In this document: piece after piece, positions 3,680 to 23,306 of the stretch
How the letters are laid out: each line of letters begins with the position of its first letter
Numbering within the stretch: position 1 is the stretch's first letter
NCBI RefSeq assembly: GCF_006714895.1
Contig: NZ_VFME01000001.1
Coordinates: 2,356,001 to 2,420,000 of the forward strand
DNA from: Gramella sp. Hel_I_59
GTDB lineage: Bacteria > Bacteroidota > Bacteroidia > Flavobacteriales > Flavobacteriaceae
Length of the DNA stretch: 64,000 bases
Direction: 5' to 3'
Notes under the pieces: generated by a model
What the model saw: only the letters and a program-made list of their open reading frames with translations
What the model was told of the DNA's origin: nothing
Database searches by the model: none
Translations under genes and position numbers: made by a program

Positions 3680-3800
3680 CAACAACAACGGTTAATCGCC
3701 AATAAGCGGCACCGTTGGTAAGAAAATAATTAACTTTACCAACAAACCAACACTAAGCCGACAATTCCGCGTCCCTTACTCCGCCAACTGGCGATAACCG
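3680..3800 (+). repeat. attC site 5, left part (family B), split by IS copy 1
   Basis: R'' ends at 3686 (GCAACAAC; complements cassette start TTGTAGC with one mismatch). The left arm and central filler are intact up to GGCGATAACCG at 3790-3800. The remaining AGACCGTTAGCC lies at 5030-5041, after the insertion. Confidence 0.85.
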
Positions 3801-3839
3801 TATTCCAAGGTTAAATCCAAGCCTTTTGTGCTAATTTTT

Positions 3840-4826
3840 TCAGGCTGCAAATCTTTGTAATTCCACATAAGGCGTTCCTCTCTTCACCACTGCAAACACT
3901 CTGGATAACAGTTTATTGCGGACATTGTTTAGCGCAATCATCTTTAACTTACCTTCCTCCCGCTTTTTCTTATAATATTGCCGTAATTCACTGTCATATT
4001 GAATGGCTGTACAGGCCGCCATGCTAAGCAGGCTCTTCATTTGCCGATCTCCCATCGGGTGGCATTTTCGCTTTTTGTGAATACTGCTTCCCGAACTATG
4101 ACCAAAGGGAGCCGTCCCACAATAACTGGAGAATTGGCGCCAGCTATTAAAGCGTTCAAAATTATTGGTGTGATAAAGCAACTGGGCGCCTACAACTAAA
4201 CCAACACCTTTTAAAGAAGTGATCAACTTATAATTTTGCGATAATGCCTCAGAAGTCTTTATCAGTGATTTTAGTTGCTTCTCTATTTTATTTATTTGAG
4301 AAGTCAGGTGAGTAATAGAGCTTACAAGCGTTTTACAACAGGTATCTGTAGAACTGCTGCTGAGCAACTTTTTCAGCTCTGAAAGGGTATTCTTCAATCC
4401 CGTACGACTACGAACCAGCTGATCACGCAAAGCCAGCAACCTGCTTACTTCTAATAGTTCATTATCTTTCAGCTCACTCGGTGAAAGTTCCTCACGGTGA
4501 AGCCAGCCATACCTGGCGATCATCATGGCATCTACCACGTCATTCTTCTCTCTGATCACTCCGGAAGAACGTTTGATTACTACAGGATTTTCCTGTACAT
4601 ATACCTGCTTCTTTGAAGATAAATACAACGCTAACTTCAAGGAATAATGACCGGTATTCTCAAAACAGAAAAACACTTTTTGTTCCTTACCGTTAGCCCA
4701 TTGCAACAAGGCTTTATAACCCTTCACATCATTACTGAACTCCCGATGGGAACTACGATTGTAAGCATAGGCATCTAACTTGTTTTTTGAAACATCAATT
4801 CCGATTACTTCTTGGTAATTTTTCAT
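3840..4826 (-). CDS. IS110-family DEDD transposase (copy 1)
   Basis: A 328-residue recombinase of normal family length. The N-terminal RuvC-like DEDD domain shows IGIDVSKNKLDAY (first Asp), CFENTGHYS (Glu), and KNDVVDAMMIARYG (the two further Asp). The C-terminal Transposase_20 region shows LKGVGLVVGAQLL and YCGTAPFGHSSGSS, whose Ser is the likely catalytic nucleophile, then MKSLLSMAACTAI. The reading frame is intact, so activity is plausible. IS110 recombinases use a bridge RNA encoded in the element to pair donor and target. Compared with the other copies, this one has Ser instead of Gly in LLEVSRLLAL. Confidence 0.95.
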   Translation of the reverse strand: MKNYQEVIGIDVSKNKLDAYAYNRSSHREFSNDVKGYKALLQWANGKEQKVFFCFENTGHYSLKLALYLSSKKQVYVQENPVVIKRSSGVIREKNDVVDAMMIARYGWLHREELSPSELKDNELLEVSRLLALRDQLVRSRTGLKNTLSELKKLLSSSSTDTCCKTLVSSITHLTSQINKIEKQLKSLIKTSEALSQNYKLITSLKGVGLVVGAQLLYHTNNFERFNSWRQFSSYCGTAPFGHSSGSSIHKKRKCHPMGDRQMKSLLSMAACTAIQYDSELRQYYKKKREEGKLKMIALNNVRNKLLSRVFAVVKRGTPYVELQRFAA

Positions 4827-4861
4827 ATTTTTAAAAAATTATTATTTGAAGGGCGCATTAA

Positions 4862-5000
4862 CTAACTCCTTTAACGGGTCCATAATAAGACCTGGTATTC
4901 CAAATGGTTCTTGCTGCCCGTATGAAGAATGGAGGACTCTTACGGCTATTGGATCTGTAATCTCGAGACCGTTTTAGTTCTCCTCCTTCTTCATCTCAAA
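4862..5000 (-). ncRNA. Candidate bridge RNA of IS copy 1
   Basis: Reading the minus strand, two hairpins follow each other. The first has a stem GAAGAAGGAGGA / TCCTCC-A-TTCTTC (+ strand 4981-4992 and 4924-4936). Its loop holds AACGGTCTCG (+ 4964-4973), identical to the attC right arm, and ATAGCCG (+ 4943-4949), able to pair with CGGTTAT of the attC left arm with one G-T wobble. The second has a stem ACGGG / CCCGT (+ 4874-4878 and 4917-4921). Its loop holds TTGGAATACC (+ 4894-4903), identical to the joined IS ends; TAAAGG (+ 4868-4873), beside the stem, can pair with CCTTTA at the IS start. This is the layout expected of target and donor guides. Transcript ends are guesses. Confidence 0.75.
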
Positions 5001-5029
5001 GGTATATTTATTAATAAGCGAAGTAAAGG

Positions 5030-5041
5030 AGACCGTTAGCC
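5030..5041 (+). repeat. attC site 5, right remnant
   Basis: AGACCGTTAGCC, the R' side of the interrupted attC; crossover GTT at 5035-5037. It now begins cassette 6 (TTAGCCACA). Confidence 0.85.
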
Positions 5042-8936: not shown

Positions 8937-8975
8937 TATTCCAAGGTTAAATCCAAGCCTTTTGTGCTAATTTTT

Positions 8976-9962
8976 TCAGGCTGCAAATCTTTGTAATTCC
9001 ACATAAGGCGTTCCTCTCTTCACCACTGCAAACACTCTGGATAACAGTTTATTGCGGACATTGTTTAGCGCAATCATCTTTAACTTACCTTCCTCCCGCT
9101 TTTTCTTATAATATTGCCGTAATTCACTGTCATATTGAATGGCTGTACAGGCCGCCATGCTAAGCAGGCTCTTCATTTGCCGATCTCCCATCGGGTGGCA
9201 TTTTCGCTTTTTGTGAATACTGCTTCCCGAACTATGACCAAAGGGAGCCGTCCCACAATAACTGGAGAATTGGCGCCAGCTATTAAAGCGTTCAAAATTA
9301 TTGGTGTGATAAAGCAACTGGGCGCCTACAACTAAACCAACACCTTTTAAAGAAGTGATCAACTTATAATTTTGCGATAATGCCTCAGAAGTCTTTATCA
9401 GTGATTTTAGTTGCTTCTCTATTTTATTTATTTGAGAAGTCAGGTGAGTAATAGAGCTTACAAGCGTTTTACAACAGGTATCTGTAGAACTGCTGCTGAG
9501 CAACTTTTTCAGCTCTGAAAGGGTATTCTTCAATCCCGTACGACTACGAACCAGCTGATCACGCAAAGCCAGCAACCTGCCTACTTCTAATAGTTCATTA
9601 TCTTTCAGCTCACTCGGTGAAAGTTCCTCACGGTGAAGCCAGCCATACCTGGCGATCATCATGGCATCTACCACGTCATTCTTCTCTCTGATCACTCCGG
9701 AAGAACGTTTGATTACTACAGGATTTTCCTGTACATATACCTGCTTCTTTGAAGATAAATACAACGCTAACTTCAAGGAATAATGACCGGTATTCTCAAA
9801 ACAGAAAAACACTTTTTGTTCCTTACCGTTAGCCCATTGCAACAAGGCTTTATAACCCTTCACATCATTACTGAACTCCCGATGGGAACTACGATTGTAA
9901 GCATAGGCATCTAACTTGTTTTTTGAAACATCAATTCCGATTACTTCTTGGTAATTTTTCAT
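8976..9962 (-). CDS. IS110-family DEDD transposase (copy 2)
   Basis: 328 residues, full length, same DEDD and Ser motifs as copy 1. It differs from copy 1 by Gly in LLEVGRLLAL and retains LITSLKG, placing it between copy 1 and copies 3-4. Confidence 0.95.
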   Translation of the reverse strand: MKNYQEVIGIDVSKNKLDAYAYNRSSHREFSNDVKGYKALLQWANGKEQKVFFCFENTGHYSLKLALYLSSKKQVYVQENPVVIKRSSGVIREKNDVVDAMMIARYGWLHREELSPSELKDNELLEVGRLLALRDQLVRSRTGLKNTLSELKKLLSSSSTDTCCKTLVSSITHLTSQINKIEKQLKSLIKTSEALSQNYKLITSLKGVGLVVGAQLLYHTNNFERFNSWRQFSSYCGTAPFGHSSGSSIHKKRKCHPMGDRQMKSLLSMAACTAIQYDSELRQYYKKKREEGKLKMIALNNVRNKLLSRVFAVVKRGTPYVELQRFAA

Positions 9963-9997
9963 ATTTTTAAAAAATTATTATTTGAAGGGCGCATTAA

Positions 9998-10136
9998 CTA
10001 ACTCCTTTAACGGGTCCATAATAAGACCTGGTATTCCAAATGGTTCTTGCTGCCCGTATGAAGAATGGAGGACTCTTACGGCTATTGGATCTGTAATCTC
10101 GAGACCGTTTTAGTTCTCCTCCTTCTTCATCTCAAA
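9998..10136 (-). ncRNA. Candidate bridge RNA of IS copy 2
   Basis: Same sequence and hairpins as in copy 1, with target guide at + 10100-10109 and donor guide at + 10030-10039. Confidence 0.72.
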
Positions 10137-10165
10137 GGTATATTTATTAATAAGCGAAGTAAAGG

Positions 10166-16012: not shown

Positions 16013-16133
16013 GCACAACAACGGTTAATCGCCAATAAGCGGGACCGTTAGAAAGAAAATAATTAACTTGACCAACAAACCAATACTAAGCCGACAATTC
16101 CGCGTCCCTTACTCCGCCAACTGGCGATAACCG
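16013..16133 (+). repeat. attC site 15, left part (family B), split by IS copy 3
   Basis: R'' GCACAAC (16013-16019; extended TACGCACAAC) complements TTGTACGTA at 15015 with one mismatch. Intact to GATAACCG at 16133; right remnant 17363-17374. Confidence 0.87.
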
Positions 16134-16172
16134 TATTCCAAGGTTAAATCCAAGCCTTTTGTGCTAATTTTT

Positions 16173-17159
16173 TCAGGCTGCAAATCTTTGTAATTCCACA
16201 TAAGGCGTTCCTCTCTTCACCACTGCAAACACTCTGGATAACAGTTTATTGCGGACATTGTTTAGCGCAATCATCTTTAACTTACCTTCCTCCCGCTTTT
16301 TCTTATAATATTGCCGTAATTCACTGTCATATTGAATGGCTGTACAGGCCGCCATGCTAAGCAGGCTCTTCATTTGCCGATCTCCCATCGGGTGGCATTT
16401 TCGCTTTTTGTGAATACTGCTTCCCGAACTATGACCAAAGGGAGCCGTCCCACAATAACTGGAGAATTGGCGCCAGCTATTAAAGCGTTCAAAATTATTG
16501 GTGTGATAAAGCAACTGGGCGCCTACAACTAAACCAACACCTTTTAAAGAACTGATCAACTTATAATTTTGCGATAATGCCTCAGAAGTCTTTATCAGTG
16601 ATTTTAGTTGCTTCTCTATTTTATTTATTTGAGAAGTCAGGTGAGTAATAGAGCTTACAAGCGTTTTACAACAGGTATCTGTAGAACTGCTGCTGAGCAA
16701 CTTTTTCAGCTCTGAAAGGGTATTCTTCAATCCCGTACGACTACGAACCAGCTGATCACGCAAAGCCAGCAACCTGCCTACTTCTAATAGTTCATTATCT
16801 TTCAGCTCACTCGGTGAAAGTTCCTCACGGTGAAGCCAGCCATACCTGGCGATCATCATGGCATCTACCACGTCATTCTTCTCTCTGATCACTCCGGAAG
16901 AACGTTTGATTACTACAGGATTTTCCTGTACATATACCTGCTTCTTTGAAGATAAATACAACGCTAACTTCAAGGAATAATGACCGGTATTCTCAAAACA
17001 GAAAAACACTTTTTGTTCCTTACCGTTAGCCCATTGCAACAAGGCTTTATAACCCTTCACATCATTACTGAACTCCCGATGGGAACTACGATTGTAAGCA
17101 TAGGCATCTAACTTGTTTTTTGAAACATCAATTCCGATTACTTCTTGGTAATTTTTCAT
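16173..17159 (-). CDS. IS110-family DEDD transposase (copy 3)
   Basis: 328 residues, intact. It shares LLEVGRLLAL with copies 2 and 4 and has LISSLKG like copy 4 (LITSLKG in copies 1-2). Confidence 0.95.
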   Translation of the reverse strand: MKNYQEVIGIDVSKNKLDAYAYNRSSHREFSNDVKGYKALLQWANGKEQKVFFCFENTGHYSLKLALYLSSKKQVYVQENPVVIKRSSGVIREKNDVVDAMMIARYGWLHREELSPSELKDNELLEVGRLLALRDQLVRSRTGLKNTLSELKKLLSSSSTDTCCKTLVSSITHLTSQINKIEKQLKSLIKTSEALSQNYKLISSLKGVGLVVGAQLLYHTNNFERFNSWRQFSSYCGTAPFGHSSGSSIHKKRKCHPMGDRQMKSLLSMAACTAIQYDSELRQYYKKKREEGKLKMIALNNVRNKLLSRVFAVVKRGTPYVELQRFAA

Positions 17160-17194
17160 ATTTTTAAAAAATTATTATTTGAAGGGCGCATTAA

Positions 17195-17333
17195 CTAACT
17201 CCTTTAACGGGTCCATAATAAGACCTGGTATTCCAAATGGTTCTTGCTGCCCGTATGAAGAATGGAGGACTCTTACGGCTATTGGATCTGTAATCTCGAG
17301 ACCGTTTTAGTTCTCCTCCTTCTTCATCTCAAA
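17195..17333 (-). ncRNA. Candidate bridge RNA of IS copy 3
   Basis: Same hairpins and guide words as copy 1; target guide at + 17297-17306, donor guide at + 17227-17236. Confidence 0.72.
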
Positions 17334-17362
17334 GGTATATTTATTAATAAGCGAAGTAAAGG

Positions 17363-20951: not shown

Positions 20952-21995
20952 ATGAACAAAACAATAAATCTTCAGAAAAACCTAATCATATTTGGAATAC
21001 CATTTCTGATTATTGGATTGATCATTTTCATTGCGAAATCACAACTATTTATAAATAACTCAAATAATCTAGCCACAGGAATAACGTTTGACTTATTATT
21101 GACAGTGCCGTTTATATATTTTTTGCTAATTAGAAAAACAAATATTCCTAAAACAACGGTAGTTCCATTTTTAATACTCGGAATCGTAATAAGTTCAATT
21201 ATTCTCCCATCAGAAAATCAGTATTATTTAAATCTTTTTAAAACTTGGGTACTCCCTATCGTTGAAATATCAATTCTATCATTTGTAATATACAATGTCA
21301 GAAAAGGAATAAAACACTACAACTTAAACAAAACCGAATCGTTTGATTTTTTTACCACATTAAAGAACACTTGTTATGAAATACTTCCCAAAGGATTTGT
21401 TATCCCTGTTGTTACAGAAATTGCGGTTTTTTATTATGGGTTTATTTATTGGAAAAAAAGAGATTTAAAAGAAAATGAGTTTTCTTACCACAAAGAAAGC
21501 GGCACAATCGCATTAATGATTGTAATCATATTTTTAGTAGCAATTGAAACGGCTGTAATACACATTTTATTAGCAAAATGGAGCAATACTGCTGCTTGGA
21601 TTTTGACATTTTTAAGTATTTACACTGGAATTCAAATTTTCGGATTCTTAAAATCAATGTTTAAAAGACCAATATCAATAGAAAATAACAAACTATTTCT
21701 TAGATATGGAATTATGAAGGAGGCCACCATTAATATAGAAGATATCGAAAGTATAGAAGTATCATCAAAAGATGTAGAGCTAAATAAGGAAACTCGGAAT
21801 CTATCTCTTTTAGGAGAATTAGAAAGTCATAACTTAATTATTAGGTTAAAAAAAGAAAATACATTAATTGGATTATACGGAATGAAAAGAAAATTTAAGA
21901 ATCTAACATTTCACGTGGACGATAAAATTAAATTTAAAGATCTAGTAATTAACGCTTTACAACAACGGTTCATCGCCAATAAGCGGCAGCGTTAG
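20952..21995 (+). CDS. Multi-span membrane protein with PH-like C-terminus (cassette 19)
   Basis: A 347-residue protein with about seven spans in its first ~230 residues (IIFGIPFLIIGLIIFIAKS, GITFDLLLTVPFIYFLLI, VVPFLILGIVISSIIL, WVLPIVEISILSFVIY, FVIPVVTEIAVFYYGFIYW, GTIALMIVIIFLVAIETAVI, AAWILTFLSIYTGIQIFGFL). The C-terminal ~100 residues (ISIENNKLFLRYGIMKEATI, DIESIEVSS) look like a PH-type domain. The frame reads into attC 19: since this site has TTCATC rather than TTAATC, no stop is met until the TAG at 21993-21995, adding about 11 attC-encoded residues. No named family. Confidence 0.75.
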   Translation: MNKTINLQKNLIIFGIPFLIIGLIIFIAKSQLFINNSNNLATGITFDLLLTVPFIYFLLIRKTNIPKTTVVPFLILGIVISSIILPSENQYYLNLFKTWVLPIVEISILSFVIYNVRKGIKHYNLNKTESFDFFTTLKNTCYEILPKGFVIPVVTEIAVFYYGFIYWKKRDLKENEFSYHKESGTIALMIVIIFLVAIETAVIHILLAKWSNTAAWILTFLSIYTGIQIFGFLKSMFKRPISIENNKLFLRYGIMKEATINIEDIESIEVSSKDVELNKETRNLSLLGELESHNLIIRLKKENTLIGLYGMKRKFKNLTFHVDDKIKFKDLVINALQQRFIANKRQR

Positions 21996-22077: not shown

Positions 22078-22116
22078 TATTCCAAGGTTAAATCCAAGCC
22101 TTTTGTGCTAATTTTT

Positions 22117-23103
22117 TCAGGCTGCAAATCTTTGTAATTCCACATAAGGCGTCACTCTCTTCACCACTGCAAACACTCTGGATAACAGTTTATTGCGGAC
22201 ATTGTTTAGCGCAATCATCTTTAACTTACCTTCCTCCCGCTTTTTCTTATAATACTGCCGTAATTCACTGTCATATTGAATGGCTGTACAGGCCGCCATG
22301 CTAAGCAGGCTCTTCATTTGCCGATCTCCCATCGGGTGGCATTTTCGCTTTTTGTGAATACTGCTTCCCGAACTATGACCAAAGGGAGCCGTCCCACAAT
22401 AACTGGAGAATTGGCGCCAGCTATTAAAGCGTTCAAAATTATTGGTGTGATAAAGCAACTGGGCGCCTACAACTAAACCAACACCTTTTAAAGAACTGAT
22501 CAACTTATAATTTTGCGATAATGCCTCAGAAGTCTTTATCAGTGATTTTAGTTGCTTCTCTATTTTATTTATTTGAGAAGTCAGGTGAGTAATAGAGCTT
22601 ACAAGCGTTTTACAACAGGTATCTGTAGAACTGCTGCTGAGCAACTTTTTCAGCTCTGAAAGGGTATTCTTCAATCCCGTACGACTACGAACCAGCTGAT
22701 CACGCAAAGCCAGCAACCTGCCTACTTCTAATAGTTCATTATCTTTCAGCTCACTCGGTGAAAGTTCCTCACGGTGAAGCCAGCCATACCTGGCGATCAT
22801 CATGGCATCTACCACGTCATTCTTCTCTCTGATCACTCCGGAAGAACGTTTGATTACTACAGGATTTTCCTGTACATATACCTGCTTCTTTGAAGATAAA
22901 TACAACGCTAACTTCAAGGAATAATGACCGGTATTCTCAAAACAGAAAAACACTTTTTGTTCCTTACCGTTAGCCCATTGCAACAAGGCTTTATAACCCT
23001 TCACATCATTACTGAACTCCCGATGGGAACTACGATTGTAAGCATAGGCATCTAACTTGTTTTTTGAAACATCAATTCCGATTACTTCTTGGTAATTTTT
23101 CAT
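22117..23103 (-). CDS. IS110-family DEDD transposase (copy 4)
   Basis: 328 residues, intact. It has LLEVGRLLAL and LISSLKG like copy 3, plus a unique Val in KRVTPYVEL near the C-terminus (Gly in the others). Confidence 0.95.
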   Translation of the reverse strand: MKNYQEVIGIDVSKNKLDAYAYNRSSHREFSNDVKGYKALLQWANGKEQKVFFCFENTGHYSLKLALYLSSKKQVYVQENPVVIKRSSGVIREKNDVVDAMMIARYGWLHREELSPSELKDNELLEVGRLLALRDQLVRSRTGLKNTLSELKKLLSSSSTDTCCKTLVSSITHLTSQINKIEKQLKSLIKTSEALSQNYKLISSLKGVGLVVGAQLLYHTNNFERFNSWRQFSSYCGTAPFGHSSGSSIHKKRKCHPMGDRQMKSLLSMAACTAIQYDSELRQYYKKKREEGKLKMIALNNVRNKLLSRVFAVVKRVTPYVELQRFAA

Positions 23104-23138
23104 ATTTTTAAAAAATTATTATTTGAAGGGCGCATTAA

Positions 23139-23277
23139 CTAACTCCTTTAACGGGTCCATAATAAGACCTGGTATTCCAAATGGTTCTTGCTGCCCGTAT
23201 GAAGAATGGAGGACTCTTACGGCTATTGGATCTGTAATCTCGAGACCGTTTTAGTTCTCCTCCTTCTTCATCTCAAA
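23139..23277 (-). ncRNA. Candidate bridge RNA of IS copy 4
   Basis: Same hairpins and guide words as copy 1; target guide at + 23241-23250, donor guide at + 23171-23180. Confidence 0.72.
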
Positions 23278-23306
23278 GGTATATTTATTAATAAGCGAAG
23301 TAAAGG

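Follow-up and report, generated by a model that had tools for sequence, protein, structure and literature searches.

The bridge-RNA mechanism of IS110 elements has already been published (PMC11208160, PMC11208158), and guide-RNA targeting of attC sites has been reported for IS1111-type elements (PMC11187229). For ISPa21, an element of the IS1111 group, a passage in PMC11616780 suggests that it may immobilise cassettes. Herein, we describe a 1,229-bp IS110-type element present in four copies of the same length in a 64,000-nt stretch of DNA (the window) and in 13 copies in the genome to which the window belongs (G000).

First, the G000 element resembles IS621 and ISCro4, as outlined in the published accounts, in a transposase with DEDD and Tnp domains, an RNA in a long left end, a target loop followed by a donor loop, a left guide lying 5' and addressing the bottom strand, a right guide lying 3' and addressing the top strand, and handshake bases, the RNA and its parts being predicted in the case of the G000 element. 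However, the IS621 and ISCro4 proteins are distant from the G000 transposase (phmmer, 105 and 89 bits), and the target is REP in IS621 and attC in the G000 element. The core in the IS621 accounts is one shared CT, whereas it is CG in the target (4943-4944) and CC in the donor (4868-4869) of the G000 element, with the first base in common; the shared core is an IS621 trait that is not known to define the group. Second, the G000 element is like ISKpn4, ISPst6 and ISPa25, the attC-targeting elements of the IS1111 type, in inserting at one attC end in one orientation, and like ISKpn4 and ISPst6 in an RNA matching both target strands (PMC11187229). In these IS1111 elements, as portrayed in that source, the RNA lies downstream of tnp, the top-strand match comes first and subterminal inverted repeats are present, whereas in the G000 element the RNA region lies upstream, the bottom-strand match comes first and no exact inverted matches of at least 6 bases, and hence no subterminal inverted repeats in this sense, were found within 60 nt of the element ends. 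Third, ISEc21, an IS110-type element with a seekRNA, likewise has an upstream non-coding region and a guide order reversed relative to IS1111; according to the same source its target lies within IS3-family transposase genes, whereas that of the G000 element is attC (PMC11187229).

Results

The element and the attC array

The element is bounded by CCTTTAC...GGAATA. All 13 copies lie on the minus strand, spanning 2,243,816-2,379,103 of the 3.44-Mb chromosome, and an IS110-domain search of G000 returned these copies and none besides. The transposase combines both IS110 domains with the G--P----SG motif in the form in which literature excerpts give it; alignment with ISCro4 and the motif point to D11, E56, D96 and D99 as candidate catalytic residues and to S245-G246 as the SG motif. 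It passes the NCBIfam model NF033542, 'IS110 family RNA-guided transposase' (189 bits, cut-off 140), and among solved structures only ISCro4 (9t56) and IS621 (8wt6) were related to it at E<=0.001. A weak match of residues 131-291 to a TIGR-Tas endonuclease model was also observed (43 bits, cut-off 100). Non-coding DNA measures 203 nt upstream of tnp and 39 nt downstream, and Rfam, searched over the whole window at gathering thresholds, returned tRNA only. A scan of genome contigs for relatives gave two, and two plasmid records were found at 35% identity (E<=1e-40). The homologues collected number 754.

A profile built from the attC beside the copies recovered 172 attC, all in one orientation (+), between 2,191,110 and 2,378,077; 19 of these start in the window, of which the array (G000:C1:2191110-2378077) occupies positions 1-22077. 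This chromosomal, integron-like array of 172 attC is very large for its group. It adjoins a tyrosine recombinase gene (2189404-2190561), the product of which passes NF040815, 'site-specific tyrosine recombinase/integron integrase' (229, cut-off 220), and falls below the cut-off of the integron-specific model TIGR02249 (195, cut-off 265). Thirteen of the 172 attC are occupied, and all 13 copies sit at the same attC base in the same orientation. The flanks of copy 1, AACGGTCT and CGGTTATCG, join into the sequence of a free-site attC with no duplication, and the cassette of copy 1 occurs without the element in L153, from another genome of the genus (93% identical), where the plus strand reads GGCGATAACCGAGACCGTTGGC. 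Since the flanks join cleanly and the empty cassette exists, the element parts L' from R' of attC. A genus-wide search with the neighbouring cassette of copy 1 gave mostly attC matches and one empty cassette. Many free attC in the array read AACGGTCTCGGTTATCGCCA; others read AACGGTTAC, AACGGTCCC and the like, and the arm is not universal. An alternative target register, AACGGTTATCG, was rejected because free attC sites give another joining of the flanks. The attC of ranks 1-47, nearest to the recombinase, hold no element (chance 0.013 for 13 random placements), and their cassettes may be newer.

Table 1. Positions in the window of the element copies, the split attC and the predicted RNA features of copy 1
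Feature	Position	Strand	Basis or remark
attC interrupted by copy 1, from 5' arm to L' side	3683..3800	+	R' side starts at 5030
IS110-type element copy 1, 1,229 bp	3801..5029	-	13-copy comparison, boundaries, flanks, empty cassette in L153
Element copy 2	8937..10165	-	1,228/1,229 bases identical to copy 1; attC start 8820
Element copy 3	16134..17362	-	Inside attC starting at 16016
Element copy 4	22078..23306	-	Inside attC starting at 21960; left flank AACGGTTTC
Transposase, 328 aa, DEDD_Tnp_IS110 + Transposase_20	3840..4826	-	Domain search
Putative promoter box TACCTTTG	4997..5004	-	Sequence only
Target-binding stem-loop, predicted bridge RNA	4924..4992	-	Fold and sequence
Left target guide AACGGUCUCG	4964..4973	-	Identical to attC arm; core CG included
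Right target guide AAUAGCCG	4943..4950	-	Pairs CGGTTAT, one G-T; eighth base against C, a mismatch
Target-loop handshake dinucleotide UA	4941..4942	-	Pairs donor TA (GGAATA end), not target CT; rule as given in an excerpt of PMC11208158
Donor-binding stem-loop, predicted bridge RNA	4851..4919	-	Fold and sequence
Left donor guide UUUGGAAUACC	4894..4904	-	UUGGAAUACC within it corresponds to element end TTGGAATA followed by element start CC
Right donor guide UUAAAGG	4868..4874	-	Its UAAAGG pairs element start CCTTTA
Donor-loop handshake dinucleotide AG	4866..4867	-	Pairs target CT, not donor TA

The predicted bridge RNA

Two stem-loops are predicted in the upstream non-coding region of the element. 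The first, at 4924-4992, reads on the minus strand GAAGAAGGAGGA-GAACTAA-AACGGTCTCG-AGATTACAGATCCA-ATAGCCG-TAAGAG-TCCTCCATTCTTC. According to the earlier note, a stem closes a loop here in which one word is identical to the right arm of attC and another, ATAGCCG, is complementary to CGGTTAT with one G-T wobble, in the left-guide/right-guide layout of the IS621 bridge RNA. The stem was confirmed, with one bulged A; the word AACGGTCTCG (4964-4973) does equal the free attC 3' arm AACGGTCTCGGTTATCG at 10/10 bases, though other free sites differ; and ATAGCCG (4943-4949) forms seven pairs with CGGTTAT, the single G-T included. The layout was supported as well, as far as the IS621 descriptions extend, by a left guide at the 5' side, a right guide at the 3' side, handshake bases and a separate donor loop that can be placed. 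Over its eight bases the right guide is imperfect here (six Watson-Crick pairs and one wobble). Among 20,000 loop shuffles that preserved dinucleotides, 3 contained a match of 10 bases to the 19-base target, and a target match of at least 8 bases was seen in none of the 1,081 other 44-nt segments of the element on the same strand. Because the guide words of the loop match cassette joining sites, the element appears to insert specifically there.

The donor loop matches the joined ends of its own element, as read in the copy 1 element alone, and both handshake dinucleotides fit the donor and target bases in the manner outlined for IS621. The donor-loop handshake pair is complete (2/2) in 9 of the 12 clade types. 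Its correlation was reached in 387 of 20,000 permutations within the attC clade, and in 18,966 of 20,000 among 8 distant types, where it is thus absent. For the region 4846-4994 the predicted folding energy is -46 kcal/mol (z -4.25), which none of 200 shuffles equalled. The putative box TACCTTTG, which we take to resemble the Bacteroidota -7 promoter consensus, would place the start of the RNA near the first stem.

Helix conservation was measured in 15 chosen elements, one per group, with the helices taken from the fold of the G000 element. Across these elements, 82.1% of the cells were paired against 73.6% in shuffles, and two-sided change was observed in 40 cells against 16.2 (0/500 shuffles as high in either case); further pair types were not above the shuffles (23 against 23.2; 323/500). 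Every measure dropped when the helix partners were slid by 1-3 columns, a control that leans toward the G000 fold because the structure was taken from one of the aligned sequences. In the RNAalifold structure of this alignment, the first stem and the donor hairpin were retained and the donor closing stem was lost.

Covariation of guides and targets among relatives

Loci of at least 36% identity provided 67 recognisable target loops of 28 distinct types, leaving out L052, L056, L134 and L136 (loop not found), L014-L026 (second fetches of L001-L013) and L077 and L078 (second views of included copies). Targets were located by the element ends and not by the guides, and for types with more than one copy the commonest target was taken. 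The left guide and its target could both be read in 20 types, the right guide and its target in 24. The left guide was identical to its own target at 7.7 of 9 bases compared with 4.25 after permutation, and the right guide formed 5.62 of 8 Watson-Crick pairs compared with 3.28. The covariation check proposed in the earlier note was therefore run and passed, with 0 of 20,000 permutations reaching the observed value on either side. Among relatives below 50% identity, the values were 6.5 against 3.21 for the left guide (8 types) and 5.58 against 2.93 for the right guide (12 types), again with 0/20,000 for each, and 3/20,000 for the left guide when wobbles were included. Among relatives of at least 50% identity, 1/20,000 permutations for the left guide and 13/20,000 for the right guide reached the observed value (12 types each). 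The outcome that the note had named as contrary, related elements keeping the same loop words at other targets, was not the rule; poor matches were three of the 20 types on the left (L034, 4/9; L129, 4/9; L130, 3/9) and one of the 24 on the right (L127, 2/8).

Preference among attC variants

In G000, the guide-matching variant AACGGTCTC was observed at 12/13 occupied and 52/159 free attC (Fisher p=3.2e-5), a comparison that depends on an indirect step, in which the bases next to the left end are counted as part of the target. The same variant was found at 8/8 occupied and 4/55 free sites in the related genome G006 (p=1.3e-7; 63 attC, one unparsed free site scored as non-matching) and at 4/4 occupied and 3/16 free sites in G009 (p=0.007; 20 attC, six unparsed free sites scored as non-matching). 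Regarding the assignment, the left flank of L013 is AACGGTTTC with an unchanged loop, so the flank base derives from the site. Element-free copies of the cassettes carry AACGGTCTC at 100% (L007), 97% (L005) and 98% (L032) identity, and also in L153; near-identical element-free copies with AACGGTCCC instead (99.6%, L007; 98.9%, L013) count against assigning the left-end bases to the target. A far-side marker, the GCC that follows the right-guide region, is in agreement for G000 (12/13 against 75/159, p=0.0024), is weak in G009 (3/4 against 2/10, p=0.09) and is not enriched in G006 (3/8 against 17/54, p=0.71).

Sites with AACGGTTAC were found at 0/13 occupied and 56/159 free attC in G000 (p=0.010) and at 0/8 and 11/55 in G006 (p=0.33); the corresponding counts for AACGGTCCC were 0/13 and 21/159 (p=0.37) and 0/8 and 14/55 (p=0.18). 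From these counts, handshake locking is indistinguishable from ordinary guide mismatch. A handshake-specific avoidance, by which a AACGGTTAC attC would pair the target-loop handshake with its own target, was unsupported in G006 at the p value given.

The attC-specialist clade and a second group

Of 46 loci with at least 57% identity (L056, L077, L078 and second fetches excluded), 43 show TGTTA/G or the second-group junction at the distance of the second arm, a simple test with a background of 5%. L116 passes on a weak-looking arm, and the pairs L027/L111 and L028/L120, with identical flanks, probably each represent one insertion sampled in two collections. L030, L114 and L117 fail the test, the site of L117 resembling an attC in which the spacing is longer. 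The insertion point of L030, ACAACGGTCT/CGGTATTAG, is in a protein gene and outside attC; there the left guide matches at 9/9 bases and the right guide poorly (three pairs and one wobble of 8). Both the uninterrupted homologue L163 in another genome (34/50 bases) and the paralogue L168 about 2 kb away (42/52 bases) align across the L030 site gap-free and show no attC.

The concentration on attC-like sites could also arise if the transposase read the attC hairpin in its folded form, or a protein of the integron, the loop words being incidental. However, L030 occupies a gene without attC, where the sequence fits its left guide, occupied attC are biased to the guide-matching variant, and distant relatives that carry other guides are found at other sequences, which match those guides; we consider this explanation very improbable.

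The guide AACGUGUUU and the flanks AACGTGTT are shared by elements in G169, G155, G230 and G407. The free target AACGTGTTTGTRTATG, read from the flank of L141, occurs at eight sites in three of these four genomes (G169, 3; G155, 3; G230, 0; G407, 2) and at none in G000, G006 and G009; three of the six distinct AACGTGTTTGTRTATG sites among those listed pass the second-arm test. Two earlier guesses at the free target of these elements yielded no sites. The sequence AACGGTCTCGGTTATC occurs 45 times in G000, every one inside the array span, and 3 times in G006, with none in G009, G169, G155, G230 and G407. In G407 (L116, L138-L141), attC-like sites are dispersed over the chromosome, each with an element, and do not form one array. 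The left junctions there read AACGTGTTT or AACGTGTTC, the core base being T or C; this may reflect a mixture of donor and target strands, and we do not count it as evidence.

A second group of about 30% identity (L037-L046, L048, L049, L051, L069-L076, L079-L084, L090) comprises 28 readable elements with 12 distinct left guides, 14 unreadable ones being left out. These left guides also track their targets (8.0/9 against 5.29; 0/5,000 permutations, offset re-optimised). TGTTA/G stands directly after the right end in 24 of the 28, as at the other attC arm, and the common junction is GATGAACCG/T..TGTTG with the guide AUGAACCG. Read from flanks and not by a profile, the sites of this group would be attC, mostly occupied at the opposite end. 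Two attC of G009 (beside L032 and L067) hold elements of both groups, with a first-group element occupying one end and a second-group element starting at the other.

Discussion

In the present study, the insertion site, orientation, guide-target match, covariation, conserved RNA fold and variant preference were all read from sequence. On this basis, it is very likely that an IS110-type insertion sequence, through a bridge RNA from its upstream region, directs its own insertion into attC. The proposal of the earlier note that the element is RNA-programmed for attC thus finds support in the site, the covariation and the variant preference.

The 13 copies might instead have multiplied chiefly by riding on cassettes that the integrase duplicated, without repeated guided insertion, and some cassettes do occur in several near-identical copies. 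However, no occupied cassette matches another over the 3' 700 bases (matches of at least 260 bases reaching the junction), the right flanks are all different, some of these cassettes are also found free of the element (100%, 99.6%, 98.9% and 97% copies), and the covariation of the guides would be left unexplained; this history is hardly credible. It is just as implausible that AACGG/CCGTAA is an internal RNA stem only, with the attC match due to a loop resembling its own left junction, for although the ACGG of the left guide can pair CCGU in the RNA and the left junction of copy 1 reads AACGGTCTCC, the guide words beyond those bases track targets between relatives and L013 combines its differing flank with an unchanged loop.

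Herein, we propose the following course for RNA-guided insertion. The upstream non-coding region would encode the bridge RNA, which would be produced and bound by the transposase. Its donor loop would pair with the joined ends of the excised, circular element (TTGGAATA+CC+TTTA). The transposase would then exchange strands at the core, with the handshake bases pairing each loop with the other DNA, and the element would be left between the L' and R' parts of attC in a single orientation. Such an insertion would disable the attC and so hold the adjacent cassettes together.

In the open-licence literature, as represented by titles and the opening parts of abstracts, we recognised no IS110-type attC specialist outside IS1111; some further papers that mention IS110 deal, in the relevant passages, with the IS1111 group or with an element located next to an integron. 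Thus, an attC-specialist clade of IS110-type elements in Flavobacteriaceae-like genomes looks new, its target class being unreported for its type in that literature, and so does a second, distant IS110 group that sits mostly at the other attC end. We hypothesize, with considerable doubt, that in these bacteria attC sites and RNA-guided IS110 elements evolve in lockstep: the guides would follow the attC of each lineage, the two distant groups would take opposite ends, and variants mismatched to the guide beside the core, such as AACGGTTAC, would be maintained because they escape insertion.

The array provides a natural many-target data set for the guide specificity of a bridge recombinase, with 172 similar sites, many of which vary at guide positions, and a record of their occupancy. 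The sequence evidence suggests that guide-RNA targeting of attC is not confined to the IS1111 type but occurs in the IS110 type too, and that an RNA-guided element helps to shape large chromosomal cassette arrays.
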